A stretch of DNA of 29,743 nt from a virus (IMGVR_UViG_3300032083_003670:1-29743), one strand, 5' to 3'. Positions 11,390 to 29,115 are shown, counted from the first letter of the stretch. Translations and numbers: made by a program. Notes: a model not told the origin generated them from the letters alone.

Positions 11390-12346
11390 ATGAAGCTAGT
11401 TGTAATCACAGGCTGCTTGGGATTTATTGGCTCTCATGTCGTCAATAAGTGCCTAGGTATGGGCTGGAAGGTGTACGGCATTGACAGCCAAACATATGCT
11501 GCAAATGCCCAACTGATTAAAACGTTCAAAGCACATTACAAAAAAAACTTTACCTTTATCGATGCAGACATCGCAGACTTGAAAAGGCTTCCTGATTGTG
11601 ATTACGTTATAAACATTGCTGCGGAGACTCATGTAGGAAATAGCATTATTGACAGCAAAGAATTCCTTAGATCAAACATCGACGGAGTTTATAATTTGTT
11701 AGAATTGATAAGAGCAAAGCCCAGCAATGTTGATCGCAGACCAATCTTGTTTCACTTTAGCACTGATGAAGTTTATGGAGACATTGAAGCTGGAGAACAC
11801 ACGGAGGACGACTTGGTTAACCCAAGCAATCCTTATTCTGCTTCCAAAGCAGCGGCTGATATGCTGGTAAAAGCTTGGTCTAGAACGTATGGATTAGAAT
11901 ACATCATCTTACGACCAACCAACAACTATGGATCCTATCAGTATCCAGAGAAGCTAGTGCCATTATCGGTTAAAGCATTAATGAGGGGTAAAAAGATTAG
12001 ACTCCACGATGAGGGCTTACCTATACGCAACTGGCTACACGCTGAAGATACGGCATCTGCGGTCATAAGTATCATAAATAGTGGAAAAACCAATGAAACT
12101 TATAACGTTGCTGGGGGCTTTGAGCAGGAAAACAGAGAGACAGTCAAAAAAGTCATTGAGGTCTTTCACGGGCCCGAGGTGAATTGGAAAGATTATGTAG
12201 ATCTTGGCTTTAGGCGAGAGGGTCAAGACGTAAGATACGCCTTGAACGACGACAAACTACGTGCGTTAGGCTGGAAACCACAAAAAGTATTTAACGAAGA
12301 GATAGAAAAAGTGGTACAATTTTATAAAGATAACTTTAAATGGTAG
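11390..12346 (+). CDS. NDP-glucose 4,6-dehydratase-like SDR (RmlB family)
   Basis: Makes a 4-keto-6-deoxy sugar from an NDP-hexose, the branch point for deoxy, amino and C-methyl sugars. The 318-residue protein has the glycine loop as GCLGFIG at 8-14 (a Cys-Leu where Gly-Ala is usual), FSTDEVYGD with the RmlB-specific T125-D126-E127 triad, Y149-x-x-x-K153 in NPYSASK, RPTNNYGSYQYPEKLVP, and RNWLHAEDTASA. The usual SHVDRSI segment reads THVGNSI here, with the Asp changed to Gly. No sugar-1-phosphate thymidylyltransferase (RmlA) is in the window, so the NDP may come from the host. Its product would suit the DegT and C-methyltransferase enzymes of the same operon. Confidence 0.91.
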   Translation: MKLVVITGCLGFIGSHVVNKCLGMGWKVYGIDSQTYAANAQLIKTFKAHYKKNFTFIDADIADLKRLPDCDYVINIAAETHVGNSIIDSKEFLRSNIDGVYNLLELIRAKPSNVDRRPILFHFSTDEVYGDIEAGEHTEDDLVNPSNPYSASKAAADMLVKAWSRTYGLEYIILRPTNNYGSYQYPEKLVPLSVKALMRGKKIRLHDEGLPIRNWLHAEDTASAVISIINSGKTNETYNVAGGFEQENRETVKKVIEVFHGPEVNWKDYVDLGFRREGQDVRYALNDDKLRALGWKPQKVFNEEIEKVVQFYKDNFKW

Positions 12347-12800: not shown

Positions 12801-13099
12801 ATTTAATTATTTTCTTTTTAGTGGTCTCGGTAAGCATTAATGCATTGTTGATTTGGTACATCAGGAAAATGCTAACTAAGCTACTCTATGTTTCAGACAG
12901 CATAGGGTCCCTGCTAGTATCAGCTAGTAATTTCTCTAAGCATCTAGATGGTTTGCATTCTATGGAGATGTATTACGGCGATGAGACTCTCGGCTCCTTG
13001 ATTGAACACTCAAAGCAAGTAATGGAAGAGATAAAAGAATTTGAAGACATTTACGCTCTAACCAATGAAGGCTTGGAAGAGGCTGAAGAACAAGAATAA
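12797..13099 (+). CDS. Single-pass membrane protein, TTG start
   Basis: A 100-residue protein with one N-terminal transmembrane helix (about residues 3-22), a short basic stretch (IRKM), then a cytoplasm-style helical acidic tail containing MEMYYGDETLGSLIEHS and ending in Glu-rich text. The start is TTG at 12797 in a TTGA overlap with the upstream TGA. The first in-frame ATG would remove the whole membrane helix, which argues for TTG. The orientation, with basic residues after the helix, suggests the C-terminus inside the cell. Function unknown; the gene is tightly coupled to gp55 (one-base overlap). Confidence 0.78.
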   Translation: MNLIIFFLVVSVSINALLIWYIRKMLTKLLYVSDSIGSLLVSASNFSKHLDGLHSMEMYYGDETLGSLIEHSKQVMEEIKEFEDIYALTNEGLEEAEEQE

Positions 13100-13782
13100 T
13101 GGCAAAAGCAAGAAAAAAGAATCTATATTTTACCAAGGATCATGAAAATGCAATAATAGCGTATGCAAAGACTGACGACATAAAAATAAGAACGGAGTTA
13201 TACATAGAGTGGATAGCTCCTGCTTTTAATGAGATGGTCGACAAGATTATTTACACCTACAAATTTACATCCCTTCCAAATATTGACGTTCTCAAAGATG
13301 AGTGCAAGATTTGGCTCACTACAATCTTGGATAAATATGACCCAAGCAAAGGCTCCAAAGCCTTCTCTTACTTCTCAGTTATCACTAAAAATTGGTTTAT
13401 TCACAAAGTTAAGAGAACCAGTCTAGAAAACAAAAGGGAAGTCCAATTAGACAAAATACCAAAGAATGTGGAAATTAGACAGTTTACTGTTGTCAATGAG
13501 TACGAATCCAAGAGGCTGGAAAAGGAATTTTGGATGAATTTTTGGGAAGAGGTTAACTCTTGGGAAACAACCAACATGAAACCAAATGAAGAGAAGGTTT
13601 ATGAAGCAATTAGGCTCATCTTTTCCAATCCAGACCGAATAGATATCTTCAATAAAAAAGCAATCTACTTTTACATCCGAGAGATCACAGGTCTCAATAC
13701 AAAACAGGTCGTAAATAACTTAAATAAAATGCGTGTGAAGTATAGAGTATTTAAAAAGAAGTGGGACAAAGGCGATTTGTAA
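13099..13782 (+). CDS. 55: Late-transcription sigma factor, T4 gp55-like
   Basis: Directs host RNA polymerase to phage late promoters; in T4, gp55 acts with gp33 and the gp45 clamp. The 227-residue protein opens with YFTKDHENAIIAY, has an NEMVDKIIYTYKF helix, and then a sigma region 2-like core with KGSKAFSYFSVITKNWFI at about 84-101, the best-conserved gp55 segment. The C-terminal VFKKKWDKGDL is basic and ends in Asp-Leu; whether it binds a clamp as in T4 cannot be told. It is longer than T4 gp55 (185 residues), with an extra C-terminal helical region. It sits between the sugar cassette and the baseplate genes that it would be expected to switch on. Confidence 0.9.
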   Translation: MAKARKKNLYFTKDHENAIIAYAKTDDIKIRTELYIEWIAPAFNEMVDKIIYTYKFTSLPNIDVLKDECKIWLTTILDKYDPSKGSKAFSYFSVITKNWFIHKVKRTSLENKREVQLDKIPKNVEIRQFTVVNEYESKRLEKEFWMNFWEEVNSWETTNMKPNEEKVYEAIRLIFSNPDRIDIFNKKAIYFYIREITGLNTKQVVNNLNKMRVKYRVFKKKWDKGDL

Positions 13783-13798
13783 TACTTTTTTGCTCTTC

Positions 13799-13807
13799 AA
13801 CTATTTA
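13799..13807 (+). promoter_or_regulatory. Candidate promoter element AACTATTTA
   Basis: AACTATTTA lies in the 32-base gap after the sigma gene. The same nine bases occur at 27271-27279 ahead of gp6, in another intergenic gap. The sharing suggests a recognition element, but two copies in AT-rich DNA are weak evidence. Confidence 0.3.
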
Positions 13808-13814
13808 TTTTATT

Positions 13815-14105
13815 ATGAAAGACTTAGAATCATACATCGACGAAGCAATCAAAAACATAAGAAGTGATCGCGCCATCACTACTGCACTCCTTATGGAATT
13901 GATGGAATACATTAAAAAGGAAGAGGGGAGACGAGAGACAGTTGGCACCATCGCCGCCAAATATGTTGAAACACTCCAGAGATCAAACGAACAGCTTGTT
14001 AAAATTAGCGGTCTTATTCAAAAAAAGGCTGGGACCGAACAAGGTCTTACAGAAGAAGATAAAAGCGAATTGTTTGATCTTATAAAAGATTCCTCTAACA
14101 AGTAA
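13815..14105 (+). CDS. Small helical phage protein, unknown function
   Basis: A 96-residue, largely helical charged protein (LESYIDEAIKNI at the start, YVETLQRSNEQLVKISGLIQ in the middle, DKSELFDLIK at the end) with no membrane segment. The in-frame ATG at 13761 would overlap the sigma gene and add an unlike, hydrophobic stretch, so the ATG at 13815 is preferred. The repeated heptad-like pattern suggests a coiled coil and oligomer. It precedes the tail-hub genes by two bases, so a virion-assembly or packaging role is possible. I do not recognise a family with any confidence. Confidence 0.75.
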   Translation: MKDLESYIDEAIKNIRSDRAITTALLMELMEYIKKEEGRRETVGTIAAKYVETLQRSNEQLVKISGLIQKKAGTEQGLTEEDKSELFDLIKDSSNK

Positions 14106-14107
14106 AA

Positions 14108-15472
14108 ATGTCAAAATCATTATTGGACATTCTAAATGTTGGTCATGGGGTTCTGAACCCTGACCACAATTCTATAACTGGGCAAAATTTTACAACCCCT
14201 GTAACTGATTTCTTTTCATCCCTTCAAAAAACTATAAACTTAGTCAATCAATCAAAGACAGGTGGAATAAACGGACCAATGGTTGGAATCTGTCTAAGAG
14301 ACGAGGGAAGAGTTTCTGAATCTGGCTGGATAGACGAGACCTGTTGGGCAGCCGTCTCTACACAAATAGTAGAGGAGGGGTCCGAGCTTGATTTGACACA
14401 GGTCAGAGTGAGGGTTCCCGAACTTCATCCCATGCTTGACATCCCAAAAGATTTGCCAAGCAGATTCGTAACAGACAAAAATCACGACATTATAAACCAG
14501 TACCCTGTATTTGTGTCACAATTTCCTACTCCAGCACCAGTTGCAGGAGACTTGGTTTGGATAGATTTTCAAGATAGAGAGAATCGAAAAGGTCCAATTT
14601 TTTTAGGAGTTGCTGAAGCTAATTCGTATTCTGCTACTAGCACTGGTGAAGAATCAGAGCCAAAAGAAGAATTTAAAGGTAGGAAAAAGAAAAAGACAAA
14701 AATCAATGGAAGGTCAAGTGATACAAAGTCAAGAGTTTTTGTTGTGGGAGATTCAAACACAAAACCAATGACGTTACCGCGTGGCGCATTCGAGCAATTT
14801 TATAGAGCCCAAGTCAGCGTAGGGGACTTATTTCAAAAAGCAAAAAACGGAGGAGGTTGGGGTAGCATTTTGAATTCTTGCATAATAGGATTAGAAAAGC
14901 AAGTTGGCGGATTTCAAAACGGGGACAAACTTATAATAGGGTCTATGGGGGGTAATGAATCATGGGGATCTCTATTTTTACTAAGCAAGCCAATCGGAGA
15001 AAACAGGACTCCGCTGGCAGTAGGCGGAAAGTTTTCTAAAGGATCTGGATATACGGATTCACATTTCGAATCTATCATGATTACAAATCAGTCCTACGAG
15101 GACACATCGCTGTTGTACTCTGCTGGCGGCAAAGGTATAAAAAAAGAAAGCGATGGCTATAAATCATTTTCTAATTCGAAGTCTTTAAAAAAGATTACAG
15201 ACAAGTTGTTAGAAATGGAACTTATAGGTGTGAAAATAATAATCTTTGGACCTCCAATTGGTGGAGACCCAAAGAGGTATCTAGATAGAACTTTTTTGGA
15301 TCAATTACAACAACAGTGGTTCGATGATAATGGAATTCAATACGTTAGCGTAATGGAAGCTTCAAAAGATTTAATTCCAAACAAGGATGATGTTCACTAT
15401 GGAAGAAGGGGATCATCTGGATACATAGAATACTTTGACAAACTATTGTCTTCAAAACTACAGAATTTTTAA
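14108..15472 (+). CDS. Baseplate hub protein: gp5-like OB domain fused to SGNH/GDSL hydrolase
   Basis: A 454-residue two-part protein. Residues 1-175 form a hub domain shared with the next gene: an N-terminal SLLDILN helix, WIDETCWAAVSTQIVEEGSE, VRVPELHPMLDIP, then QYPVFVSQFP and VAGDLVWIDFQDRENRKGPI, which look like the OB fold of T4 gp5. A Lys-rich linker (about 188-204) follows. Residues 209-454 form an SGNH esterase: block I FVVGDSNT with Ser216, block III GGN at 281-283, and block V DDVHYG with D427 and H430. SGNH enzymes deacetylate or cut esters on sugars or peptidoglycan. A tail-tip enzyme acting on host envelope during entry is inferred. The T4 beta-helix spike and lysozyme domain are absent. 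Confidence 0.85.
   Translation: MSKSLLDILNVGHGVLNPDHNSITGQNFTTPVTDFFSSLQKTINLVNQSKTGGINGPMVGICLRDEGRVSESGWIDETCWAAVSTQIVEEGSELDLTQVRVRVPELHPMLDIPKDLPSRFVTDKNHDIINQYPVFVSQFPTPAPVAGDLVWIDFQDRENRKGPIFLGVAEANSYSATSTGEESEPKEEFKGRKKKKTKINGRSSDTKSRVFVVGDSNTKPMTLPRGAFEQFYRAQVSVGDLFQKAKNGGGWGSILNSCIIGLEKQVGGFQNGDKLIIGSMGGNESWGSLFLLSKPIGENRTPLAVGGKFSKGSGYTDSHFESIMITNQSYEDTSLLYSAGGKGIKKESDGYKSFSNSKSLKKITDKLLEMELIGVKIIIFGPPIGGDPKRYLDRTFLDQLQQQWFDDNGIQYVSVMEASKDLIPNKDDVHYGRRGSSGYIEYFDKLLSSKLQNF
14345..14376 (+). repeat. 32-base direct repeat shared by hub paralogues, copy 1
   Basis: These 32 bases are identical to 15724-15755 in the next gene. They lie in the shared hub domain, upstream of the 64-base identical block. 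Confidence 0.9.
14461..14524 (+). repeat. 64-base direct repeat shared by hub paralogues, copy 1
   Basis: All 64 bases equal 15840-15903 in the next gene, wobble positions included, and encode residues around RFVTDKNHDIINQYPVFVSQ. Flanking codons differ, so identity stops sharply. Confidence 0.93.
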
Positions 15473-15486
15473 CGGAGAAAGATAAA

Positions 15487-16797
15487 ATGGCAAAATCATT
15501 ACTAGACATTCTAAATACGGGGTATGGGGTTTTAAACCCAGAACACGTATCTCTATCTGGAAAAAATTATAATAAAAAAGAATCTGGTTTTTTTGATCTT
15601 GCAGTTGGAACCATAACTAATGTTATGGCACACTCAAAGGCAGCTACAAAGGGACCAATGGTTGGCATTTGTCTAAGGAACGAAGGCAGAGTTTCGGAAT
15701 CTGGCTGGATAGATGAAACATGCTGGGCAGCCGTCTCTACACAAATAGTAGAGGAAGGTTCAGAAATGGACCTTGTTCAAATCAGAGTTAGAGTGCCTGA
15801 ACTCCATGGAATGCTCGACATTCCAAAAGATTTGCCAAACAGATTCGTAACAGACAAAAATCACGACATTATAAACCAGTACCCTGTATTTGTGTCACAA
15901 TTTTCTTCGGTAATGGAACCAGTCGCGGGAGATTTAGTTTGGATAACCTTTCAGAACAAGGACTCACAACAAGGGGGTATTTTCTTGGGAGTTGCTGAAG
16001 CTAATTCATATTCCGCCAATAGCACTGGGGAAGAAGATAATTCTTCTGGGGCTTTTAAGCGGGGAAGAAAGGTAGCAAAAACTGGAGGCACAAAAACAAG
16101 CCCAGAAAGTGATAGGTACAAATTTGGCTTACGTTACAGGAATGAAAATCTCTTCACGGGAATGTTTCCTCCCGGTATTTCGGAGGAGGAATTTAAAAAC
16201 CGTTTGCCGTCTGGTTTTTTTAAAAACAATGGCGTTGGCACCACGGAAACCTATTATGATTTGGCTAAAAAAGCAATTCAAGATCACTCCCCCAACATGC
16301 CAATGGCTTTACTCGTTGCCTTAATTCAAACTGAATCAAATTTTAATCACCGAGCCACAAGTCGTGCTTCAAACAAAGCAACTAGTTTATTAAAAAAACA
16401 GCCATACAATTTTAAATATAAAAATGATCCTAGATTTGGTGACATTGGGGCAAAAGGTCTGGGTCAATTTATGAACGTAACTAGCGGCTATCAAGTATCT
16501 CAAAAATTTGGTGGTCCTGTTGATAATGGGGTATTCGGAAGTTTGCTACACGACCCTTTTAAGCCAAAGGATAATATCCCAGCGACAGTCAAATTAATGC
16601 ATAGGCTTATAAAGAAAAGATACAACAATGATCCTGTAACAGGATTACATGCTTATAATGCTGGTCGGGGAAACACTCCTGCCGCTGGAACTAAAATTTC
16701 TGATAAATGGGTAAATCCAAGATACTCTGAGAAAATCTTGCGTTATTACCATCACTATCAAACTGGGGAAGTACACGAAAAAATGCCAACAAAATAA
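15487..16797 (+). CDS. Baseplate hub protein: gp5-like OB domain fused to lytic transglycosylase (SLT)
   Basis: The paralogue of the gene before it, 436 residues. Residues 1-176 repeat the hub domain almost residue by residue (ICLRNEGRVSESGWIDETCW, VRVPELHGMLDIP and QYPVFVSQF). After a basic linker comes a soluble-lytic-transglycosylase domain: catalytic-type Glu283 in ALIQTESNF, GAKGLGQFM at 321-329, and HAYNAGRGN at 388-396 with Tyr389. SLT enzymes cleave the glycan strand of peptidoglycan between MurNAc and GlcNAc, as T4 gp5 lysozyme does by hydrolysis during tail entry. GGAGA eight bases before the ATG is a good ribosome site. This is the likelier functional equivalent of gp5; the SGNH paralogue would be a partner or an alternative. 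Confidence 0.9.
   Translation: MAKSLLDILNTGYGVLNPEHVSLSGKNYNKKESGFFDLAVGTITNVMAHSKAATKGPMVGICLRNEGRVSESGWIDETCWAAVSTQIVEEGSEMDLVQIRVRVPELHGMLDIPKDLPNRFVTDKNHDIINQYPVFVSQFSSVMEPVAGDLVWITFQNKDSQQGGIFLGVAEANSYSANSTGEEDNSSGAFKRGRKVAKTGGTKTSPESDRYKFGLRYRNENLFTGMFPPGISEEEFKNRLPSGFFKNNGVGTTETYYDLAKKAIQDHSPNMPMALLVALIQTESNFNHRATSRASNKATSLLKKQPYNFKYKNDPRFGDIGAKGLGQFMNVTSGYQVSQKFGGPVDNGVFGSLLHDPFKPKDNIPATVKLMHRLIKKRYNNDPVTGLHAYNAGRGNTPAAGTKISDKWVNPRYSEKILRYYHHYQTGEVHEKMPTK
15724..15755 (+). repeat. 32-base direct repeat shared by hub paralogues, copy 2
   Basis: Identical to 14345-14376 in the preceding paralogue. Confidence 0.9.
15840..15903 (+). repeat. 64-base direct repeat shared by hub paralogues, copy 2
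   Basis: Identical to 14461-14524. The start-to-start distance of 1379 bases spans one whole gene, so recombination between copies would delete or exchange the C-terminal enzyme domain. Confidence 0.93.
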
Positions 16798-16879
16798 AAA
16801 CAACAAAAAATTTAATAATAAAGTTAATTATTGTTAAAGTAGAGATAATTATAGGCAATCTAAAGGAAATTGTAAATTA
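16798..16879 (+). other. 82-base AT-rich intergenic gap with weak inverted repeat
   Basis: This is the longest gap in the window. AATAAT and ATTATT around a seven-base loop, with AACAA and TTGTT further out, could form a weak AT-only hairpin, but there is no GC stem or clear T-run to call a terminator. AAGGAAA near 16864 is the ribosome site of the next gene. A promoter may lie here, but I see no element I can defend. Confidence 0.35.
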
Positions 16880-17884
16880 ATGACCACAAAAGATTATATA
16901 AAAATTAAAGACATTAGATCCTTCAAAGTCAGAAAGGCTGAGAGAGATGCTAGAGCGTCTGTCGACTTTGCCATGGAAAGAATGGGAGAAGATGCCAAAT
17001 TTAAGTTTAGAGGCATAGGCGGTCGTCTATCTCCTGAGTTTGTTCCAAAATTTAATGAGTCAGAGAGCGAAAAAGTTCTTCAAGGAAGGGGAACAAATGC
17101 GTGGATTGTTCTAGGAAAAGATAGACCCCAAGGTACAGCTTCCGGATATGGAGGCATCGGTGCAGACAGGTGCGGAGCAATCGATCTATGTGTGGGTCGG
17201 TTAAGTATTCTGGGTGACAAGGGGGCAAACCCTTCTCAATTTTCAACTGATGTTTTGGATTTGGACGCGACCTTGAATAACGATGGCAAAGCCGATAATG
17301 ATTTTGTTGCAGACGCCGCAAGGATTTACATTTCTGAAAGAACTAGGATTGATGAAAACTTTGGTATAGCAGTTGGAAAAGCTGGCTCCACGCCCGGACT
17401 ATCCGCAATAGGTATTAAAGCAGATCAAGTTAGGTTGATGGCTAGAGAGGGAATAAAATTAATAACCAGACCAGATGAAAGAAACTCTAAAGATGGAAAC
17501 GCTGATGTTGTTATGGGTATTGACCTTATAGCAGGAAATGATGACTCTGACTTGCAGCCCCTTGTCAAGGGAAAGAATCTGGAAAAACTACTATTGTACA
17601 TGGCACAGGACACTTCAAATCTTGCATCGATGATACATTCTTTGACCATTTCTGTTATTGCCTTGGAGAGTATGTTAGCAGCACATACCCATACAAATGC
17701 AGCCGGTCCAACATTACCATCTATTGAGTTGGGTGTTTTTACGGCAAATTCAACAATTAAAAAAACATGTTTAGACATTCCATCACATTATAAGAAAGTC
17801 ATGGAGAACATAACTGCTGAAATAGAATTTTTAAAACCCTATGGGGCGCAGTACATTAATAGTAGATCTAACCATACAAATTAA
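16880..17884 (+). CDS. Probable tail spike/central baseplate structural protein
   Basis: A 334-residue protein. The middle has a repeated strand pattern, with ARIYISERTRIDENFGIAV near 147-165 and GIKADQVRLMAREGIKLITR near 178-197, resembling the trimeric beta-helix of phage spikes and VgrG tips (strand, turn, and A-D-x-V-R/G-I-K type repeats). An HTH (His-x-His) at 269-271 in AAHTHTNAAG recalls the iron-binding H-x-H of P2 gpV-type spike tips, although about 60 residues of mostly helical sequence follow it here. Two hub paralogues lacking a spike lie just before it, so this gene may supply the separate spike. The start is preceded by AAGGAAA. The structural role is fairly sure by context; the spike identity is inference. 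Confidence 0.7.
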   Translation: MTTKDYIKIKDIRSFKVRKAERDARASVDFAMERMGEDAKFKFRGIGGRLSPEFVPKFNESESEKVLQGRGTNAWIVLGKDRPQGTASGYGGIGADRCGAIDLCVGRLSILGDKGANPSQFSTDVLDLDATLNNDGKADNDFVADAARIYISERTRIDENFGIAVGKAGSTPGLSAIGIKADQVRLMAREGIKLITRPDERNSKDGNADVVMGIDLIAGNDDSDLQPLVKGKNLEKLLLYMAQDTSNLASMIHSLTISVIALESMLAAHTHTNAAGPTLPSIELGVFTANSTIKKTCLDIPSHYKKVMENITAEIEFLKPYGAQYINSRSNHTN

Positions 17885-17900: not shown

Positions 17901-20900
17901 ATGGCTCTTAAACCACCAATAACTCCCCTTAAACTCGCCGTGAAGCAGTTTGACGAAAAGGGAAAATCACAAGTCGATTCGTCGCAAATTGGTGATGAGT
18001 TCTATTTTAAAAACACTCCTCCAAATTCATCTGAAATAACAGCTATCTCTTCTGTTAACATCCGTATGCCATTTTATCGCAATTCGGCAAATAGTATAGA
18101 AAACTCCGTGTCCTTTGAAAATTTATACAGAGAAGGGGATAGTGATAAAGTTGCCAACATCCTTGTTAAGGGCGGCGCAATAAATAAGGCATTAAAATAC
18201 TCTTTATTGTACAATTATTTTGGCTACCCTGTGGCGAACATAACATCAGATTCCAATAATTTATCTGAAAGCCCGGAAAGCGCGGACACTTATCAGTTTA
18301 CAACACAAAACAAATATGACTACAAGCCATACTTGTATGGATACGCATACAGTAAAATTAATAATGATAATGCCAACCTTTATACAACCTATAGAGCAGC
18401 GGGTATACCAACAAGACAAGTTTATCAATTAGGCAGGATAGGTCAATTGCCTGATTTCGGCAGTATTAGCAATAAAGACGACCTAAAGTTGGCTTATGAA
18501 AATAATACTTATAAAAGTTTTCAAGACCTAGATAATGACGGAGGATTCAATGGAGAATTAAATTATAAAATTTTTCAACAAATCCATGGATCCTATGAGG
18601 GTCCATCCCCCATAGGTGGCGGATTGCTTGAGCAGACGTATGTTGACATCATTGGATTCTCTCCAGAGGCATCGTTCTTCGCATCACATAATAACAATGG
18701 ATCATTATACATTTATAAGCCACAAAAACCTTTGGGTGAAAACATAGACAATGGAAAGCTTTTAGGGTCGTTTAAGGGCGACTCCATCTCTCTTCCGCTA
18801 TCTGTGGCATCAGGGGAGATGCTCTCCAATTATGATGAAAGTCAAATTTTGGAACTCGTTAAGGGCGGAGATGCTGGAGTACCATCAATTCAAGATGCAC
18901 AGCAAAAATTGTTTGGAAGCACATCTAATCAGGATAGTTCAAATTATAGCGCATTCTTAGATGCAGTCATGTGGAAGAAGTTTTCAAACCCTATCAATAA
19001 AACTTATTGTAGGGCTTGGCTACCATCATTTCAAGGCACAAGATTTGGATCATTTGGGCTAACCAATGATTCTTATGGACCGGATCCGCAAATTGTTGAA
19101 GGCGGAGCCGGTACCGGATTAACTTTTGGGCAAGACTATCAGTATAGTCAAGTTTCTCAAATGATAAACCACAACTTAACATGGAAAGGAAACTATAATT
19201 ACGACATTGATACACTAGGTATGATCTTGGGTCAATATGGCGCGACAGGCTGGTATGAATACATTAACCAAGAAGGTTTGGTAAACGAACTGGATATAGA
19301 AAATCAAAGCATAAATGGCACCCCAGATGACTTCTTAAAACAATCTTACGATAAGTTTTCTAAAGAAAATTTGGCGTCGATGTATAAGATAATCCCCGGA
19401 AGCAAAGTTTTAAATAGTGGGACAAATTCTGGAAATCAAAATGAAGTTAGTTATTATGTTGCCAATCCCGCTAGAACACTAAACAAAATTATGCCCTATG
19501 TTATGAAGTACATAACAGAAGTTGTGCCAAGTTTTACCACCGCTGGGGCGGCGGACGAGTGGAAATCTGGAGATGGTGCTCTTGACAACAATTTAAACAC
19601 ATCAGATGTAATTAGCAAATTAAAAACATCAATAGAGCCGTCCGACCTCTTAAGGAAATTTAGATTCTCAACAGAGGACATGACAGAATACGATAATTCT
19701 GACGTTAAAGGTTCTCTAGGATATACACACCGTGTCGGAGATCTGGGAAAATCAGGAGAAGAATTAGGCTTAAACCAAGCAAGAAACAGACTCACTATTG
19801 CTACACCATCAATCTCGCAGAGAGAATATTTGACCCAAGGTTCAATCGGTGGAGGCACGGGCGATTATCCAGCTTTGATTGAAAGCTACTATTCTTATGT
19901 CGATTATTTACCTTTTGATAAAAACTTTACGTATAATTATTATTCTCCAAAAGACAATGGGGGCTTTCGTTTTTTAGCTGACAATCTGGTTGTTAATCTA
20001 GCTAACAATAAGTCAAATGGTTCTAGCGAATTTGCGATGGCATCAACTTTCTCGCTATTCCTACTGTCACAAATGTATTTAAAGTTGCCACCCTATTATT
20101 ATAAATCTCAAGACATTGAGGGGTATTATGCGAACTCTATTTTAGAATCTGGCACCTCCGCCCATGGCGGCGTTGAGATGAAGATTAAAGTATCTAATAA
20201 GTGGCTCAACATGGATGAATCTGATGGGATCATAATCACCGATACACAGATGGAACCCGGTAAGAAAAATGTATACGGCGGGAGTGCTATTAATTATTTG
20301 GCTCAATCTTTATACACCGATGGATTTAAGGGCAATGATGCTAGGAAAGAATTGACTAGCTTAACAAACTTGTCTGGCGAGGGGACAAATTATGGATTCT
20401 TGGGCTTAGGGTCATTAACATTCCCACCAAGCCTATACCCAGAATTTGCAAATGAAAACCCAGCTATAGCATTGTGGCAATCAGAGGAAATTTCCGCTTA
20501 TTGGGATAACCCCCCGGACGAGATAGGACCTTACGGGAAAGAAATTTCAGTCGAAGTTAAAGGGCAGTCCGATCTAACTTTTCCAGTGTGGAACTATTCT
20601 GGAAAAGATCTAGACAACATTAACTGGAAAACAATTTCTGAATATGAAGACAAGGTAGAAGATTTACAATCAGCTATTAATGAAAATTCTCAGATAGGTC
20701 AAGTAATAAATTATGGAATTCCAGAATGGGTAAGGGGGCTACGAATTTATCCAACACTGGATTCTGAAACCACTATAACAAACCTACAACAATCAGAGTT
20801 CTATGATGATGGTGCCTCTGTTGTCGCTGCTATGAACCAAGCACCAGTTGTAGAGGGGAGCGGCGAGGGCACCATCCTAAGAAACTATAAAACCTCAAAC

Positions 20901-23900
20901 TCAAAAAACATTAAAGATAAAATAATTTCTGGTGTTAAATTTGTAATCGAGCCAACCATACACGAATCTTCTGAAATGCCAGTTATACAGGGCATCGGAG
21001 ATAATTCTGTCGAAAATTTCTATGGGGAACACAAATCTTATGCTGAATTAAAATATGCCGTAGAGATCGACATCGACGAAAGAAAGCTCTTAATGGACAT
21101 GGCTTCTCAAGGAATAATTGCTTTTGCTGGAAATCTTGGAGACTATGAAGATCTTGGGTTTGACATAGAAGAGTTGTTATATAAATCAAATGGTAACGTG
21201 GTATCACCCTCTTTAGCAGATGCCTATGAACAATTGACTGATGGTTTTTCAACAATTTCTGGTTATGATTTTAGTAAGTTTCCCTCATTAGTATCTCCGG
21301 GAACCCCTGCACTTTGTGGAACAGACGCCCCCCAAGATGTTAAATCTAAGGCTCAGGGAATCAAGAGTACCACAAATGATCCCTTTGTCTGCACAAGTTA
21401 TGTTTGCTTAAACGAAACTGGCGCTCCATCGGTCGCTTTAAAATCTTCTCCGGGAACCAAGTCTGGCAACATGGGCTATTTAGCTGACAAAACTATTGTC
21501 AAAGTCTTAAAAGAATGGGTTAACGGAAAAGGAGAATTCAACAAAGTTCATGTTACAGACACTAACAGCCCACTTAGTGGATCAACCGGGTACATCTCCC
21601 CTGAAGTTTTAAAATCTATTCGATTCTCTTCTGAAGAGCCAATCTTCTTTGAGGAAAGATTTTCTCTACCTCTAGCTGAGACAATCGTACAGATGAGCAG
21701 TGAGATGGCAAAAGCCTTAAATCCTAGTTGGTGGAAAATTCCTCAAAACTCTATTGCTGAAACATCAGAACCCTACTTACATTTAGAAGCCGGAGAGTAT
21801 CACTATCCTGTTACACTAGATACCGAGTGTATAATAGACGAAGAGGACTTTGAAAAACAAAAGTTACAAGCAAAAAAGAAAGGATTAGTAGAATTATTTA
21901 ACTACTATGATAAGGATTACAACGAATCAGACATAGAAAATTTTATACAAACTTATCTAGCAGTAAGAATTGATGATGATGGGTATTATGTGGACTCAAG
22001 ACCCGGAGCCAAAGTCATGATGTTGCTTAAAGTGGGGGGAGTATACCTAAATGCAATCCCAACAAACACACAAAGCTTGGAAAATTTAAAAAATGCCGCA
22101 ACAAAAGTGATTTCTTTAAACACCAATTGGTACCAGCTACATTTGCAGCAAGCAGTATATGCTTTGAATAAGTTATACCTAGACATGTATTCATCCGAAT
22201 ACACAGTTCCGGGATTCAACTTTTTTAAGGAATCAAAAAGATTATCCAGTGTCCCTCTTACTTTGAAAAAAGTATTAGCAGCGAATGGTTATGAAACTAA
22301 CCCATCTGAAGAGAATGTTTTTAATTTAGGATTCAATGATGCCTATGAGTTGATTTACATTTCTTATAAAGAGAAGGGTAAAAATGAAAAACTAATGAAC
22401 CTAGGTTTTAACCACCTTAAAAACTCAGAACCGTTTGTATTTCCCTATACGATGAGTCTGCTGTATCATCACAGACAATTAAAAAATCCACTTCTAAAGT
22501 GGCAAATTATTTTCAAAGAATGGCTCCCTGTGCCTAGACCTAAGATAATTCTAAAGGAAGCTGGAGATGGGGACTTTCCAATCTCCAAATGTTCCCCATG
22601 GATGAACTGGGTCTCTCCCTCCTTATCTAAGCTTTGGGACAACGCATTGGGTCAATTAAGTGAAGCTCTAGATCTGGATCCGCGATACGATTTGGGCGCA
22701 TTTCAATTTAATCTATTGCAATATTTCCCCCCATGTCCGCGACCTGCTGCGGGAAGAGGTCCCGGTTATTTGAACTTTGTTAGTCAAATAAATGGGCAAT
22801 CACAGATTTATACAGAAAAAGAATTAGTTGAAGGCATGTCCAACGAAATAAACAAAGTTGGAGAATACGTTGGAGATTGGCTTTCATCAGGCGAGGCTTT
22901 AAAAGACGTTCAGTCAAAAATCTTTGACATGGACGACTTATATACATATGTATTGAACTACATAACACCCGAGCTTCTATACAGCAAGATTTGCAAATGC
23001 TTTTTAGACTTGATGGATGTTGATGACATAAGCGTCCCAAACTTAGAAATTAATGCAACAGGCGGATCTGGCGGGCTAACGTTAAACCCTGATTCTGTTG
23101 GTAAGAACCCAAAAGAAATGCTCGACATTCAAGGACCAGAAATGTCGACTAGCTTTTTAGATGAAGATGGAAATTATAAGGAATGGAAAGATTGGGACCG
23201 GACAGCTATTAGTGCAGAAGATCTTTTCTGCTCATTTTGCTTTAGAATGCCAAGCGTATTTCTCAGATTACCATCTACAGACATCTTGGCAGAACTTATC
23301 AACGCACTGAAGGCAGCTTTGGAATTCGCTCTAGCTCAAATTTTAATGCAATTGGTCGCATCCTTGCTTGAAATTTTATTAACATGCCCAGAGCTTCAGT
23401 GTGGTCCGGAAGAAAATGTTGGACGAGTTCAAGATTTTGGTGCATTAAACCTCTCAGACTTGATGGGTGATGTTGATTTTGATAAGTGTGGATTATTGAT
23501 AGATGGAAAGTTTATTACACAAGAAAAAGTTGATCAAATGCTGATTGAGATATCAAATAGTCTGACAACTACCGAGGTTTTAGGTCTTATCGAAGGTAAT
23601 GCTTCAAGTGTTGTAATTAAAACAGCAAATCAGGTTATCAATAAATACCCGAACATAAGATCAGCTATACCAAATCCTGCAATGATAGAAGATTTTTTCT
23701 TATGTGCTGGTTCTAAAATTGATCCAAATTTCTTAGATCAGATTCTCGATGATACAGCAGAATCCTTTCAAGACCCCACAGTATGCAGCAACATTCTGGA
23801 GGAAACAAAACAGAAACTTCTTGATAAGTGCGGAACTTTGCCCAATGCGATAGAAGTAGCAAATAAGGCTTTGAATCACGACATCAATAAGTATAAAGAA

Positions 23901-26825
23901 ATAGCAAGAATAATCAGGGAGAATGACGATCTTTCAAATCAACTCCCCCCGTTATTTACAGATGGCAAAGGCGCACAAAGTATTTTATCTGGCATTAAGT
24001 TTGATACATTAGATTTTGCATTAGATAACGTAATTGATAATTTATCAATTCCTATTGAAACACAACTAAACATTGATTGTAATAACTTTTTTAATCCTCT
24101 GTCTAATAGGTTTGTAAAAGATAACGGCGGAGCTTCCCTGTATGATCTTGATGTTAGAGATTTCTTGCTTTGGAGAGGCTTCGGCGATGATGACAGCAGC
24201 AACACTTTGGCGGGGCTTGTGACTCCTGATGAAGTGACTCCCATAGACTCGATTGTAAATAATGTTGCAGAATACGTAAAATCTGGAGAATTTCAATTCA
24301 CATTACAAGCTCCCGAACTACAAGCCACAATTAAAATGAATCCCCCGCAAACAAAAGATGGAGAATTAATCTACACCAACAACCTGACACTGTTTGCTCA
24401 GAGACCACCAGTTGGATCCAATGAGGGCAATACAATACAATTTAATTTATCTTCGAAAGAATTTGCTCCTGACATCAAGGAGTTTTTAGAAAAAAATGAG
24501 ATAGAGCTTTATAGCAACCAGATACCAGAGCAAGTTCAGGTTTTTGCTGCCCTAATGTCTAAGTCTGGTGGTATTTCTGACTTTTTATCAAAAGATGCAT
24601 TGGCAGAATTTTATTCAATAGTGCTGTCTTCCTTAACAAATGGAATTGGAAATACTCTAAGAGATACAAACATTTTGGAAACCTACAGTGTTAAGCCCAC
24701 AGACAAAGTAACATTGTTTGATAATAAGGGTCTTGGGCAAGTTCTCTCTATAGCGGCAGCACCTTTTCTCATAGCAGACTCATCGCTGGACAAGTTTATC
24801 GACGAGTTTTACCCAGTATTAACGAGAAACGCCATAGAAGATACGGACTTGACAACGTTGCCTGCCACCCAAGCCAAGAATAATCCATATTCTTCTGGAA
24901 TTGTTGATTTTGAAGAGATGAAGAGGGTCATTAAAAACAACTATGACTTCTCTAGAGAAGCAGATCAAACATCTGACTCCATTCAAATGCCCCAAAAGGC
25001 GTTTTTAAATGGGCTTGTGCATGGATTCATGCAAATTTTTGCTGGTGAAGTATTCGCGAAGGCTTGTTATTACTTGCCTTATTTTCCTCATGAGGTATTT
25101 TCTTCTAATTCTGAGCTATTAATTGAATACATCTTTGATGTCTTCGAGACAAATTGGCTTAATACAGCACAACAAGAAGAATTTAAACCTATTTGGAAAT
25201 CAACTGTATGCAGGCTAGTAGCAGAGAAAGCCGAATTCGTACCAGACAGTGATTCTGATAAACTGCCTCGCCTTCCGGGAGAAGTTGGAAGTGAATTTGC
25301 CGCCCCAACAGAAATAAAAGGGTCAATTTATGACATGAATTTGGGCATACCTGTTAGAATTGAAAATTGGAAGGATGCTACCAAGTATTTTATTAGACAA
25401 GGCTATGAGGGTCCATTAAGATTTATTAAGAATAAAATACAAGGAAACAAATTAAAGACAGGCAGTTTTGTCAACAATGAGGCTAACCCGTTTGATTTCA
25501 TGGCTTTTAAGTCTTTAAAGCAAATACATCATAGAAATTTAAACTTTGAAACAGAGCAGGGGTATAACTGGGTTCCATCTTCAATTTCAAAAGAGGACCA
25601 ATTTAAAACAGGAAGATTTTTCATACAATATTATTATGAACTAGAAGAGTTGGACAAATTTGTCACCCCCGATGCAGACAGCGGAGAGGTTAATGAACTT
25701 TTTAATGTGCAGTTTGTAAACAGAACACCAGACTTGAAAGGAAAAATAAGCCCCCAACAATTTGTTAATTTAATAAACCAACTAATACCTCCCGGAGGAA
25801 ATTCTCAAATGGGGTTTGGTTATGATAATAAATTTAAATCTAAAAAAATAAAAGATTTTTTCAAGTCCATTAAAATAGGGTTGAGGTTTTGTTATGGATT
25901 GAGGCATTACAATACAATTTCTGATGCTGAACAAGAAGGTATAAATGACTACGATAAAGTAAAAGATTCAATTGATTTCTTAGTAAAAGAATATCAAAAA
26001 GCACTAGACTCTGTAGCGTTAACCGAGGCAATTGATGAATCAATAGAGGGAGAGTTCACAGAAGATCAACAAAAGAATGCCGACCTTATTTATGATTTTA
26101 CTAACTTTATTAGAAGAGAAAAGTCATTTGTAATCTTTGAAAATGTTGGGACTAAATATGATCTAGATAGTTCCGATCCTTCTGAGCCATTTGAAATAGA
26201 TGGAAAAGAGGGCGAGTTTGTTACTCAAGGCATTTCTGGGACAAATTTGGAATTTTTGGAAGAAGAGCTTTTTGAAGCGTTTTATCAAAGCGAAACAGGA
26301 GACAATCCATCCGGGACCGTTTTCGGCTATGCGATAGATAAGTTAATAGAAAAAACCGGAGCAAAAGTCAGCTTTGTATTTCCGATTATCTCTAGGAGCG
26401 AAGACGTTACAGATGATAAAGCATTTAATAAGAAGCTTTATAATGTGGCAGAATCTTATGAGGGGAATGAATTAGAAAGAATTCTAGATTTTTTCGAGAG
26501 ACCAACCGGAGTATCTAAGACTCAAAAGCTTTTGGAATCAATAGCAATGTCAGAAGAATACAGAGCTATGTTTAGTTACGTGATTCCGGTCCCCGAGATC
26601 ATTAATTTATATTTAATCTTCTTTAATTTGATTCTTGATACAGACAAAGAAGTTTTAAAATCATTTAAATTAAGCAAAGATGTTATGGCTTCTTTAATTG
26701 AGTCTAATTACTCTCTGAGGGGGAAAGATGCCTATAAGAACGTTCCCAAGTCAATAGAAAACATGGGAGGTCCTAAAGGAATTGCTCAGAGCTTCTCTTC
26801 TAATTCGAACTTTAACAAAAAATAA
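17901..26825 (+). CDS. Giant (2974-aa) baseplate-associated structural protein
   Basis: One uninterrupted reading frame fills 30 percent of the window. Residues 1-1100 are rich in Asn, Ser, Tyr and Gly with short strands, like extended virion proteins. Residues about 1162-1237 look like a bacterial SH3 domain (SVALKSSPGTKSGNMGYL ending in GYISPEVL), a fold that often binds cell-wall peptides. A Cys-containing centre (KCSPW, YFPPCPRP, KICKCF, LFCSFCF) leads to a 34-residue hydrophobic helix at about 1795-1828. The remainder is mostly helical and acidic. No signal peptide, protease site or tape-measure-like heptad run was seen. Position between hub/spike and gp25/gp6 makes it a baseplate or tail-tip component. 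It might do the work of missing wedge proteins such as gp7 or gp53 (inference). No family name can be given. Confidence 0.9.
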   Translation: MALKPPITPLKLAVKQFDEKGKSQVDSSQIGDEFYFKNTPPNSSEITAISSVNIRMPFYRNSANSIENSVSFENLYREGDSDKVANILVKGGAINKALKYSLLYNYFGYPVANITSDSNNLSESPESADTYQFTTQNKYDYKPYLYGYAYSKINNDNANLYTTYRAAGIPTRQVYQLGRIGQLPDFGSISNKDDLKLAYENNTYKSFQDLDNDGGFNGELNYKIFQQIHGSYEGPSPIGGGLLEQTYVDIIGFSPEASFFASHNNNGSLYIYKPQKPLGENIDNGKLLGSFKGDSISLPLSVASGEMLSNYDESQILELVKGGDAGVPSIQDAQQKLFGSTSNQDSSNYSAFLDAVMWKKFSNPINKTYCRAWLPSFQGTRFGSFGLTNDSYGPDPQIVEGGAGTGLTFGQDYQYSQVSQMINHNLTWKGNYNYDIDTLGMILGQYGATGWYEYINQEGLVNELDIENQSINGTPDDFLKQSYDKFSKENLASMYKIIPGSKVLNSGTNSGNQNEVSYYVANPARTLNKIMPYVMKYITEVVPSFTTAGAADEWKSGDGALDNNLNTSDVISKLKTSIEPSDLLRKFRFSTEDMTEYDNSDVKGSLGYTHRVGDLGKSGEELGLNQARNRLTIATPSISQREYLTQGSIGGGTGDYPALIESYYSYVDYLPFDKNFTYNYYSPKDNGGFRFLADNLVVNLANNKSNGSSEFAMASTFSLFLLSQMYLKLPPYYYKSQDIEGYYANSILESGTSAHGGVEMKIKVSNKWLNMDESDGIIITDTQMEPGKKNVYGGSAINYLAQSLYTDGFKGNDARKELTSLTNLSGEGTNYGFLGLGSLTFPPSLYPEFANENPAIALWQSEEISAYWDNPPDEIGPYGKEISVEVKGQSDLTFPVWNYSGKDLDNINWKTISEYEDKVEDLQSAINENSQIGQVINYGIPEWVRGLRIYPTLDSETTITNLQQSEFYDDGASVVAAMNQAPVVEGSGEGTILRNYKTSNSKNIKDKIISGVKFVIEPTIHESSEMPVIQGIGDNSVENFYGEHKSYAELKYAVEIDIDERKLLMDMASQGIIAFAGNLGDYEDLGFDIEELLYKSNGNVVSPSLADAYEQLTDGFSTISGYDFSKFPSLVSPGTPALCGTDAPQDVKSKAQGIKSTTNDPFVCTSYVCLNETGAPSVALKSSPGTKSGNMGYLADKTIVKVLKEWVNGKGEFNKVHVTDTNSPLSGSTGYISPEVLKSIRFSSEEPIFFEERFSLPLAETIVQMSSEMAKALNPSWWKIPQNSIAETSEPYLHLEAGEYHYPVTLDTECIIDEEDFEKQKLQAKKKGLVELFNYYDKDYNESDIENFIQTYLAVRIDDDGYYVDSRPGAKVMMLLKVGGVYLNAIPTNTQSLENLKNAATKVISLNTNWYQLHLQQAVYALNKLYLDMYSSEYTVPGFNFFKESKRLSSVPLTLKKVLAANGYETNPSEENVFNLGFNDAYELIYISYKEKGKNEKLMNLGFNHLKNSEPFVFPYTMSLLYHHRQLKNPLLKWQIIFKEWLPVPRPKIILKEAGDGDFPISKCSPWMNWVSPSLSKLWDNALGQLSEALDLDPRYDLGAFQFNLLQYFPPCPRPAAGRGPGYLNFVSQINGQSQIYTEKELVEGMSNEINKVGEYVGDWLSSGEALKDVQSKIFDMDDLYTYVLNYITPELLYSKICKCFLDLMDVDDISVPNLEINATGGSGGLTLNPDSVGKNPKEMLDIQGPEMSTSFLDEDGNYKEWKDWDRTAISAEDLFCSFCFRMPSVFLRLPSTDILAELINALKAALEFALAQILMQLVASLLEILLTCPELQCGPEENVGRVQDFGALNLSDLMGDVDFDKCGLLIDGKFITQEKVDQMLIEISNSLTTTEVLGLIEGNASSVVIKTANQVINKYPNIRSAIPNPAMIEDFFLCAGSKIDPNFLDQILDDTAESFQDPTVCSNILEETKQKLLDKCGTLPNAIEVANKALNHDINKYKEIARIIRENDDLSNQLPPLFTDGKGAQSILSGIKFDTLDFALDNVIDNLSIPIETQLNIDCNNFFNPLSNRFVKDNGGASLYDLDVRDFLLWRGFGDDDSSNTLAGLVTPDEVTPIDSIVNNVAEYVKSGEFQFTLQAPELQATIKMNPPQTKDGELIYTNNLTLFAQRPPVGSNEGNTIQFNLSSKEFAPDIKEFLEKNEIELYSNQIPEQVQVFAALMSKSGGISDFLSKDALAEFYSIVLSSLTNGIGNTLRDTNILETYSVKPTDKVTLFDNKGLGQVLSIAAAPFLIADSSLDKFIDEFYPVLTRNAIEDTDLTTLPATQAKNNPYSSGIVDFEEMKRVIKNNYDFSREADQTSDSIQMPQKAFLNGLVHGFMQIFAGEVFAKACYYLPYFPHEVFSSNSELLIEYIFDVFETNWLNTAQQEEFKPIWKSTVCRLVAEKAEFVPDSDSDKLPRLPGEVGSEFAAPTEIKGSIYDMNLGIPVRIENWKDATKYFIRQGYEGPLRFIKNKIQGNKLKTGSFVNNEANPFDFMAFKSLKQIHHRNLNFETEQGYNWVPSSISKEDQFKTGRFFIQYYYELEELDKFVTPDADSGEVNELFNVQFVNRTPDLKGKISPQQFVNLINQLIPPGGNSQMGFGYDNKFKSKKIKDFFKSIKIGLRFCYGLRHYNTISDAEQEGINDYDKVKDSIDFLVKEYQKALDSVALTEAIDESIEGEFTEDQQKNADLIYDFTNFIRREKSFVIFENVGTKYDLDSSDPSEPFEIDGKEGEFVTQGISGTNLEFLEEELFEAFYQSETGDNPSGTVFGYAIDKLIEKTGAKVSFVFPIISRSEDVTDDKAFNKKLYNVAESYEGNELERILDFFERPTGVSKTQKLLESIAMSEEYRAMFSYVIPVPEIINLYLIFFNLILDTDKEVLKSFKLSKDVMASLIESNYSLRGKDAYKNVPKSIENMGGPKGIAQSFSSNSNFNKK

Positions 26826-26853: not shown

Positions 26854-27243
26854 ATGCCAAACTACTCTCCAAAATTGCCTTTGGCTTTTGATGAAAAAGG
26901 CGGTTACAAAATGATGAATACGCTGGGGGATGTTATAAAGCAGAATCTGAAGTCCCTTGTTTTAACAATGCCGGGAGAAAGAATAATGATGCCAAATTTT
27001 GGAGCAGGAGTTTATCAATACTTTTTTGAGCCAATGCACCCATCATTGTTTAGAAAAATAAGGGCAGATGTAATTAGGCAGGTTGGTAGCTACATGCCTT
27101 TTATCCAAATACAGGCAATAGATTTCCTTACCAGCGATGTAGACTTATCCCTATCGGATACTACAGTCAGAATAGTTATAAAATACTCAGTACCATCTTT
27201 TAATACTAATGATGTTCTGAATCTACAAGTAAATTATGGTTAA
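26854..27243 (+). CDS. 25: Baseplate wedge protein, T4 gp25-like
   Basis: A 129-residue protein with the gp25/lysozyme-like fold signature: NTLGDVIKQNLKSLVLTMPGER at the N-terminal third (PGER at 40-43), MPNFGAGVYQYFFEP after it, and the VRIVIKYSVP strand near the end. The length matches T4 gp25 (132 residues). In T4 and in R-type systems it is the sheath initiator of the wedge, sitting where the first sheath ring attaches. It is followed after 60 bases by gp6, its physical partner in the wedge. Confidence 0.92.
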   Translation: MPNYSPKLPLAFDEKGGYKMMNTLGDVIKQNLKSLVLTMPGERIMMPNFGAGVYQYFFEPMHPSLFRKIRADVIRQVGSYMPFIQIQAIDFLTSDVDLSLSDTTVRIVIKYSVPSFNTNDVLNLQVNYG

Positions 27244-27303: not shown

Positions 27304-29115
27304 TTGTCTAGACAGAATGAAAAAGAAAAAAAGGTTCCAATAAGATACACAAGCAGAGATTTTAATACAATCAAGACTGACCTTGTTGAGTACGCAAAAA
27401 GATATTATCCTGATACTTATCAGGATTTTAGCGAAGCATCATTCGGATCTCTTATGTTAGATACTGTTGCTTATGTTGGCGACATGCTATCTTACTATCT
27501 TGATTATCAAGCGAATGAATCCTTTTTGGATACATCTATAGAAGTAAAGAACATAATAAAACTCTCCAAGCAGCTTGGATATAAACAAAAAGGAGCACCT
27601 TCCTCTACTGGTATAGTGACTTTTTATGCCAGCATACCAGCATCCTCTGAGGGCATCGGCGCAGATTTAAATTATGCACCAGTATTACGTAGGGGTGCAA
27701 TTTTCACTTCAAACGGAGGCGCATCATACACTTTAGCAGATGATGTAGATTTTTCAAATTTTCAAAATGAAATGGTCGTATCTCAAGTTGACTCTACAAC
27801 TGGGTCGCCAACTAGGTACGCATTAAGAACGTATGGTAGAGTTGTTTCTGGTAAATTAGCTATACAAAAGATACAAGTACAGAACTTTCAAAGATATCCT
27901 AGATTTAAAATCGATTCATCAAATGTTAGTGAAATTATCTCGATTACAGATTCTCAAGGGCGTGTATTTTATGAGGTTGATAATCTGGCACAAGATGTTA
28001 TCTATAAGCAAATTTTAAACATGGAATCTGACAAAAACCAAGTCCCATTTCTCATTAAGCCCGTATCTGTATCCAGAAGGTACATTATTGAGCACGAGTA
28101 TGGAGAAACATTTATACAGTTTGGTCATGGTGATGAAAACTCCTCAACAAAGAATGATGTCATAGATACAACAAAGTTAGCTTTAGACATGCATGGCAGA
28201 GACTACATAACTGACAAAGCTTTTGATCCGTCAAAGTTAATTTCAACAGACAAAATGGGAATAGCTCCGTCGAACACCACTCTGACTGTTGTATACAGAA
28301 CAAATACTGCAAACAATGTTAATGCTTCGACAAATTCCCTAACAAACATAGCAAATCAAGAGTTTTCTTTTTCAAATCCCGCCTCTCTTAGTGCTAGAGA
28401 GATAGATAATGTTGTAAATTCTGTAGAATTCATTAATGAAACTCCAATTACTGGTGGCGATAGAATAAATTCTACCGATGACATAAAAAACTTGGCTTAT
28501 GGATCTTTCAGTTCTCAAAACAGGGCGGTTACAAGGGAAGATTACGTAACGTTAGCTTACATGATGCCCGCTCAGTTTGGATCTCTTAGTAAAGTTCAGG
28601 TCATAAGGGATAACTCTTCTTTTAGAAGAAATTTGAACATTCATGTTTTGTCAAAAGATAAGGAAGGTTCCTATACAATAGCGCCACAGTCTATAAAAAA
28701 TAATTTAAAATCATGGCTGTCTAGATATAAAATGATTAATGATACTGTGGACATTTTGGATACAAAAATAATAAATTTGGGAATAGAATTCACAGTTGTT
28801 GGCGAGAACGGTTTTAATAAAAATCAAACCTTGCAACTATGTGTATCAAAAATAATTAATGAATTTGTAAATAGAAATACTGAAATAGGAGAGTCGTTGA
28901 GGATCGGAGACATTTTTAGAGTTTTAAAAAATGTCGATAGCGTATTGGATGTGGTAGAGGTTAAATTTGTTAACAAATTCGGAAGCCAGTATTCTAGTAT
29001 TTCTTATGATGTTTTACAAAACAGTTCAGCAGACGGAAGGCTATTAGAGGCACCAGAAGATGGTATTTTTGAATTTAAGTTTCCTTCTTCTGATATAGTG
29101 GGGACAGTTTTATAA
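27304..29115 (+). CDS. 6: Baseplate wedge protein, T4 gp6-like
   Basis: A 603-residue wedge protein (T4 gp6 has 660). The N-terminus contains YTSRDFNTIKTDL, EASFGSLMLDTVAYVGDM and YYLDYQANESFLDT, the strongest gp6/BaseplateJ-like signature. VTREDYVTLAYMM and the MINDTVDI region belong to the C-terminal dimerisation part. In T4, gp6 dimers form the ring that holds the wedges together and bind gp25, gp53 and gp7. Translation starts at TTG; no ATG exists before residue 51. The gene follows gp25 as in many T4-like phages, and its stop overlaps the next ATG by one base. Confidence 0.94.
   Translation: MSRQNEKEKKVPIRYTSRDFNTIKTDLVEYAKRYYPDTYQDFSEASFGSLMLDTVAYVGDMLSYYLDYQANESFLDTSIEVKNIIKLSKQLGYKQKGAPSSTGIVTFYASIPASSEGIGADLNYAPVLRRGAIFTSNGGASYTLADDVDFSNFQNEMVVSQVDSTTGSPTRYALRTYGRVVSGKLAIQKIQVQNFQRYPRFKIDSSNVSEIISITDSQGRVFYEVDNLAQDVIYKQILNMESDKNQVPFLIKPVSVSRRYIIEHEYGETFIQFGHGDENSSTKNDVIDTTKLALDMHGRDYITDKAFDPSKLISTDKMGIAPSNTTLTVVYRTNTANNVNASTNSLTNIANQEFSFSNPASLSAREIDNVVNSVEFINETPITGGDRINSTDDIKNLAYGSFSSQNRAVTREDYVTLAYMMPAQFGSLSKVQVIRDNSSFRRNLNIHVLSKDKEGSYTIAPQSIKNNLKSWLSRYKMINDTVDILDTKIINLGIEFTVVGENGFNKNQTLQLCVSKIINEFVNRNTEIGESLRIGDIFRVLKNVDSVLDVVEVKFVNKFGSQYSSISYDVLQNSSADGRLLEAPEDGIFEFKFPSSDIVGTVL

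Follow-up and report, generated by a model that had tools for sequence, protein, structure and literature searches.

The window analysed here is the whole of a 29,743-base viral record from IMG/VR (IMGVR_UViG_3300032083_003670:1-29743); the host genome is absent from the record. It contains two adjacent genes, hub A and hub B, whose products begin alike and end in unrelated predicted enzymes, an SGNH hydrolase and an SLT lytic transglycosylase, respectively (Table 1). An earlier note, made from the DNA alone, had described this arrangement, and the two open reading frames on the + strand and a BLASTP comparison of their products bore it out. BLASTP gave one alignment (residues 1-199, 70% identity, E=1e-94) and no significant alignment past residue 199. 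The duplicated unit is about 199 residues long, rather than the roughly 175 given in the note, and comprises an N-terminal arm, the OB domain, and the start of a linker; the OB fold proper spans residues ~56-170. The folded part (residues 56-180) is 84% identical between hub A and hub B. Of the 83 codons for residues 56-138, 24 show silent differences only and 6 encode a different residue, which implies that the shared domain is under purifying selection. The genes are separated by 14 bases, and an AG-rich stretch lies upstream of each.

Most matches to the full-length model in a structure search (VIA) were SGNH enzymes; the OB domain was therefore folded alone. The resulting model (mean pLDDT 76.5, about 90 at residues 101-170) matched the P1 baseplate spike (Z 7.0), VgrG1 (Z 6.6), and T4 gp5 (1k28_A; Z 6.3 over 82 residues, 26% identity); these Z scores of 6-7 are tied with those of unrelated OB folds, so that the match to the gp5/VgrG class is one of fold level only. 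At that level, the gp5-like character claimed for the N-terminal domain was upheld. In a viral structure library, the OB model matched a named Gp5/Vgr OB-fold protein as well as several phage proteins 440-785 residues long. The fold match and the gene position together make the gp5-type assignment solid at the level of family resemblance, and hub A and hub B are very probably hub subunits that carry two enzymes. Two BFVD entries with consecutive accessions, A0A1B1IUR3 (456 residues) and A0A1B1IUR4 (472), also match the OB model and might represent tandem hubs from a public record.

Neither Pfam nor PHROGs recognised the C-terminus of hub A as SGNH. Three of the four SGNH blocks were identified (Ser216, Asn283, and Asp427 with His430), all but the Gly of block II, and the corresponding domain of a phage relative, at the hub locus that we call L219, aligns with it over 259 residues (29% identity, E=1e-20) with all of these blocks kept. 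Foldseek placed PatB first (3.9e-3), with a rhamnogalacturonan acetylesterase also among the top rows. Nearly all VIA matches were SGNH enzymes (Z 9.3-7.2), including PatB (Z 8.2), Ape1 (Z 7.6), acetylxylan esterases, sialate esterases, and lysophospholipases. The hub A model is of moderate confidence, falling to low in the middle of the SGNH domain (residues 284-356). Chance motif matches were rejected as the source of the assignment because of the L219 relative and the fold. This evidence agrees with the SGNH identity and residues named beforehand, and it supports the placement of the window SGNH as a divergent group member, identified by motifs and predicted fold. A profile of ten hub SGNH domains matched PDB chains in the order Ape1 (4k3u, 1.8e-8), TesA, a DUF459 protein, and PatB; this Ape1-led result is driven by the larger SGNH subgroup, to which the window/L219 pair does not belong.

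The C-terminus of hub B is predicted to be an SLT lytic transglycosylase, as the note had it, of the GH23 type. The match to PF01464 lies well above the Pfam cut-off, the putative catalytic Glu283 stands in a QTES motif, and GLGQF occurs at residue 324. When annotated phage records were searched by tblastn, hub A found no match and the SLT part of hub B found one 30% match.

About 117 distinct hub loci of the same gene order were gathered via sigma-factor and spike profiles; scans of viral contigs returned nothing when the query was hub B by itself, the OB pair, or just the SGNH part. The order kept across loci is late sigma factor, ~100-aa protein, hub slot, HxH spike, giant protein, gp25, and gp6. 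By these neighbours and this order, the hub genes occupy a conserved T4-type baseplate block. In all complete loci, the small protein precedes the hub slot and a counterpart of the 334-aa protein lies directly 3' of it, with the HxH motif nearly invariant. A C-terminal beta-helix spike is not on the hub A or hub B polypeptide; the spike-like part is a gene of its own. We call the 334-aa protein spike-like from its position, HxH motif, and conservation, and it may be the gp5C-like part that T4 keeps within the same polypeptide. Against PDB, the spike profile gave only rows with E>0.5 and no solved-structure match.

Table 1. Features of the baseplate gene block in the window
Feature	Position	Strand	Basis or remark
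Late sigma factor, T4 gp55-like	13099..13782	+	phrog_234 1.2e-3; upstream boundary of block
Small (~100-aa) protein preceding hub slot	13761..14105	+	start of the family likely close to 13815
Hub paralogue A, 454 aa: N-terminal arm, gp5-type OB, Lys-rich linker, SGNH domain	14108..15472	+	
OB domain of hub A, residues 56-180	14273..14647	+	AF2 pLDDT about 90
SGNH domain of hub A, residues 209-454	14732..15469	+	motifs, L219 relative, Foldseek, VIA
Predicted nucleophile Ser216 (GDS 214-216)	14753..14755	+	Ser invariant in hub SGNH alignment
Predicted oxyanion-hole Asn283 (GGN 281-283)	14954..14956	+	motif and hub SGNH alignment
D427-x-x-H430 (DDVH 427-430), predicted catalytic Asp/His	15386..15397	+	His invariant in hub SGNH alignment
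Hub paralogue B, 436 aa: same arm and OB, SLT lytic transglycosylase domain	15487..16797	+	
OB domain of hub B, residues 56-180	15652..16026	+	AF2, pLDDT about 90 at residues 101-170
SLT domain of hub B, residues 269-398	16291..16680	+	PF01464 8.1e-13
Predicted catalytic Glu283	16333-16335	+	QTES (QTESNF) motif
Spike-like protein, 334 aa, HTH (HxH) motif near C-terminal third	16880..17884	+	separate gene
Giant 2974-aa structural-type protein	17901..26825	+	no family match
Baseplate wedge gp25	26854..27243	+	PF04965 8.9e-12
Baseplate wedge gp6-like	27304..29115	+	phrog_219 7.9e-23

The hub slot, between the small protein and the spike, combines an N-terminal OB domain with variable C-terminal cargo: M15/VanY, M23, M74, Amidase_2, DUF2272, Phage_lysozyme (GH24), Phage_lysozyme2, SLT, N-acetylmuramidase, GH19-like, SGNH, and one phosphatase-like domain. 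The slot is an exchangeable mount for wall enzymes. Compared to its closest relatives (L006-L010), the window has a sigma factor that is 88-93% identical and a small protein that is 79-91% identical, whereas the OB domain is only 37-46% and the spike 42-57% identical and the cargo is unrelated. These differences imply that the puncturing apparatus changes much faster than the genes just upstream. Along window positions 13099-17884, identity to the closest relatives drops abruptly from about 90% to about 40-50% at the hub/spike. Moreover, the GH104-like cargo of L178 and that of L212 are 70% identical and their OB domains only 22-31%, which implies that cargo moves between hub backbones. In the ~1300-aa hubs of L014, L016, L032, and L037, several enzymes stand on one OB domain; an origin by three fused OB copies was rejected, as self-BLAST shows no internal repeats. 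An alpha/beta-hydrolase-like domain occurs in single hubs of 1200-1560 aa at L016:10901-14875 (GHSNGG), L207, L215, L233, L239, L032, and L037, most of which fuse an M15-type peptidase on one OB, possibly a second route to an esterase plus a wall cutter.

Tandem OB paralogues, which share 38-70% of the N-terminal ~175-215 residues and then diverge, recur at loci beyond the window. The cargo is amidase, M15, and a third that is SleB-like by eye in L018; phosphatase-like and lysozyme2 in L030; lysozyme2-like, GH104-like, and SGNH in L046; SGNH and GH104-like in L178, L179, L212, and L252; GH104-like and SGNH in L243; M23, GH104-like, and SGNH in L257; and M23 in L183, whose second cargo is M15-like by eye only and was not found by Pfam. 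In an OB tree, the paralogues cluster by locus with full support in seven loci. The remaining two cases are quartets of close loci, L212/L252 (starred) and L178/L179 (89/99, not starred). This clustering implies a minimum of about nine duplications, unless the paralogues evolved in concert. Within both quartets, the OB paralogues group by cargo, which implies that both paralogues were retained with their cargo after the phages diverged. Co-evolution or gene conversion of the L178/L179 paralogues, hinted at by raw identities, is not supported by this grouping. At L018:10941-15220, L046:1262-5186, and L257:4041-8045, the OB paralogues number exactly three and all differ in their C-termini, and no locus with more than three was seen among the loci gathered; the three-paralogue loci invite the idea of a one-of-each trimer. 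The paralogue at L030:10958-12451, which adjoins the tail-lysozyme paralogue, has a dual-specificity-phosphatase-like domain (HCTHGADRTG, PF00782 2.7e-4), an odd cargo for a tail tip.

SGNH cargo is mostly accompanied by glycan cutters. In the first set of loci, a glycan cutter was present alongside SGNH in 9 of 10 SGNH slots, compared to 20 of 107 slots without SGNH (Fisher p=1e-5, an optimistic value, because related contigs count as independent in the test and the retrieval started from a few spikes). A later scan with a GH104-like profile added two distinct hub loci, L252 and L257, both with an SGNH paralogue. On the spike tree, SGNH presence requires at least 8 changes. L012/L013 and L200 have a GH104-like domain without SGNH. 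On OB paralogues, the SGNH and glycan cutter pairing occurs in six duplicated lineages including the window. The same combination occurs on single chains: L175 has a muramidase and SGNH fused on one OB, and L304/L305 a muramidase, SGNH, and M15 fused on one OB. The logic of pairing an esterase with a glycan cutter, put forward in the earlier note, gains independent support from the at least five other duplicated lineages and the fusions. The recurrent partner glycosidase is labelled GH104-like, and "like" only, from its sequence: it matches the phrog_90 endolysin and aligns with lambda endolysin R (hhalign E 5.6e-4 in a single comparison, GRYQ...WASLP; hmmsearch 0.019), and its profile has no PDB match. 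At L180:468-2964 (also L302 and L306), a muramidase-SGNH-M15 hub is split in L180 by a frame break; the related contigs L304/L305 hold it intact in a single open reading frame. L299 (1487 aa, SGNH match) was not counted, as no hub OB, sigma factor, or spike was found beside it, and L296 is cut at the contig end.

We modestly favour a reading in which one hub carries both enzymes, SGNH stripping O-acetyl groups that block the transglycosylase and SLT then cutting. Hub A and hub B would be duplicated gp5*-type hub subunits of a contractile tail with one envelope enzyme each, the same OB docking domain mounting each enzyme next to the separately encoded spike protein. Both paralogues are likely to be in one virion, at the same tail tip. 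There their OB domains may assemble around the three-fold axis into a mixed ring of A2B or AB2 composition, and we propose this mixed trimer only tentatively. Upon tail contraction, SGNH would de-esterify a wall polymer, most plausibly at the 6-O-acetyl groups of N-acetylmuramic acid (MurNAc), and so free the C6 hydroxyl that a lytic transglycosylase requires; SLT would then cut the glycan and the tube could pass. The order of enzyme action is likewise conjectural, and whether peptidoglycan O-acetyl is the SGNH substrate stands at an even balance. Lytic transglycosylases are inhibited where MurNAc is O-acetylated at C6 (PMC1199599), and Neisseria LtgA (GH23, the same type as SLT) forms a complex with Ape1 in which each stimulates the other (PMC7083599), which gives the window pairing a known biochemical counterpart. 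In the type VI secretion system (T6SS), heterotrimers have been reported for VgrG proteins whose C-termini differ (PMC8668125), which, together with the near identity of the docking domains, makes mixed rings plausible.

Several results weigh against this reading. A single gene suffices in most hub slots. The tenth SGNH slot, L219, carries an amidase with SGNH in one chain and no glycan cutter. A tree-aware test of the SGNH-glycosidase association gave ~3.5 concordant and 0 discordant pairs, which run in one direction but are underpowered and not significant. By sequence, the window SGNH stands apart with L219 in a divergent subgroup: it scores only 0.027 against a profile built from the eight remaining hub SGNHs, and a two-sequence profile of the window and L219 matches no PDB chain. 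Finally, Ape1 and PatB act on peptidoglycan O-acetyl groups, but SGNH enzymes act on many esters, and the predicted fold by itself does not reveal which.

The foremost alternative, which we consider fairly unlikely, is that both enzymes are on one hub but in layered penetration, SGNH acting outside the wall (O-antigen, capsule, or a lipid ester) and SLT on peptidoglycan. The acetylxylan esterases, sialate esterases, and lysophospholipases near the window model, the second place of TesA in the profile matches, and the amidase partner in L219 are all in keeping with it, and SGNH domains have been described in the tail fibres and depolymerases of phages (PMC11058221, PMC9862828). By contrast, the window SGNH is located at the hub, not on a fibre, Ape1 is the best profile match, glycan cutters accompany SGNH at 9 of 10 loci, and the L304 fusion places SGNH between a muramidase and M15.

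Less probable still is an assembly in which both proteins share a virion but no mixed trimer, either as two stacked homotrimeric rings or as a structural ring with a substoichiometric passenger. In L196, L220, and L236, a second wall enzyme occurs without any OB domain, which implies that a one-OB ring with passengers exists in this phage group. However, the 84% identity of the window OB domains and their purifying selection leave little room for different neighbours, and the reported VgrG heterotrimers also speak for mixing.

The earlier note had left a choice between a mixed hub and alternatives of which a virion uses only one. The former is retained in the tentative form given above, and the latter, which might for instance serve different hosts, we judge improbable. 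The very fast turnover of cargo between relatives with nearly the same sigma factor makes a switch conceivable, but the single-chain fusions in L175 and L304 make joint delivery a working state elsewhere and are the strongest argument against one enzyme per virion. Moreover, both paralogues have stayed with their cargo since divergence in L178/L179 and likewise in L212/L252, and in the window both genes, 14 bases apart, have the upstream AG-rich stretch. No inversion or switch came to light, although no search aimed at one was made. That the SGNH domain is an inactive remnant or binding module, as its divergent sequence and the low model confidence at residues 284-356 might suggest, is very improbable given that Ser, Asn, and His are kept in L219 at only 29% identity.

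The textbook tail tip has one hub protein and one lysozyme. Like the window, T4 has a tail-tip OB with one C-terminal wall enzyme, followed by a spike, with gp25, gp6, and the late sigma factor nearby. Unlike the window, it holds OB, lysozyme, and beta-helix in one gp5 precursor, whereas the window has a separate spike gene and an OB-enzyme gene duplicated with two different enzymes. "Evolved" VgrGs and mixed T6SS spikes resemble the window in their OB spike subunits with different C-terminal effectors and several paralogues per machine; the window differs in being a phage hub with wall-degrading cargo and a spike encoded apart. The Neisseria LtgA-Ape1 complex likewise pairs an SGNH esterase with a GH23-type lytic transglycosylase (PMC7083599), and Ape1 and PatB are both matched by the hub SGNH profile, but the window pair is phage-borne, with predicted tail-tip delivery and a divergent SGNH member. 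The nearest named phages by sigma factor and gp6, Flavobacterium phage immuto, Microcystis phage Mel-JY01, and uncultured phage LR756508, have the same block. Unlike the window, they hold in the slot a single hub/spike protein that ends in an HxH-like tail, and enzyme paralogues were not recognised there; in Mel-JY01, a chitinase-like gene lies separately. In cyanophage S-CAM7 (L247:4239-6137), the GH104-like glycosidase is borne by the hub protein named "late control gene D" (gpD type) instead of by an OB paralogue. A neighbouring gene in this Synechococcus phage is annotated as hub and tail lysozyme and has no obvious lysozyme domain by eye.

Each part of the window system is known in kind: the gp5 hub, SGNH, SLT, and several VgrGs in one machine. 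In the open literature searched, we found no paper that describes a tandem, convergent, exchangeable set of phage hubs; one may exist elsewhere. More broadly, and with somewhat less than even confidence in the whole, we suggest that the hub ring of a large marine-type phage group may be a heteromeric multi-tool analogous to the mixed VgrG spike, made up either of two or three OB paralogues or of a single OB with several fused enzymes, in which SGNH-transglycosylase pairs would be convergent because hosts O-acetylate their peptidoglycan, wall O-acetylation being a defence against entry. If two or three OB paralogues do share a hub, the three-fold rule assumed since T4 would be broken, as in T6SS spikes. 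Peptidoglycan O-acetylation as a barrier to phage entry, overcome by a carried de-acetylase, would become testable, and the loci offer natural pairs of esterase and lytic enzyme.

Elsewhere in the window, the 2974-aa protein has no PHROG match, and relatives have counterparts of 600-3000 aa in the corresponding position. Three nucleotide-sugar epimerase-like genes (phrog_540) lie upstream of the baseplate block, at 6177-7085, 8473-9444, and 11390-12346.

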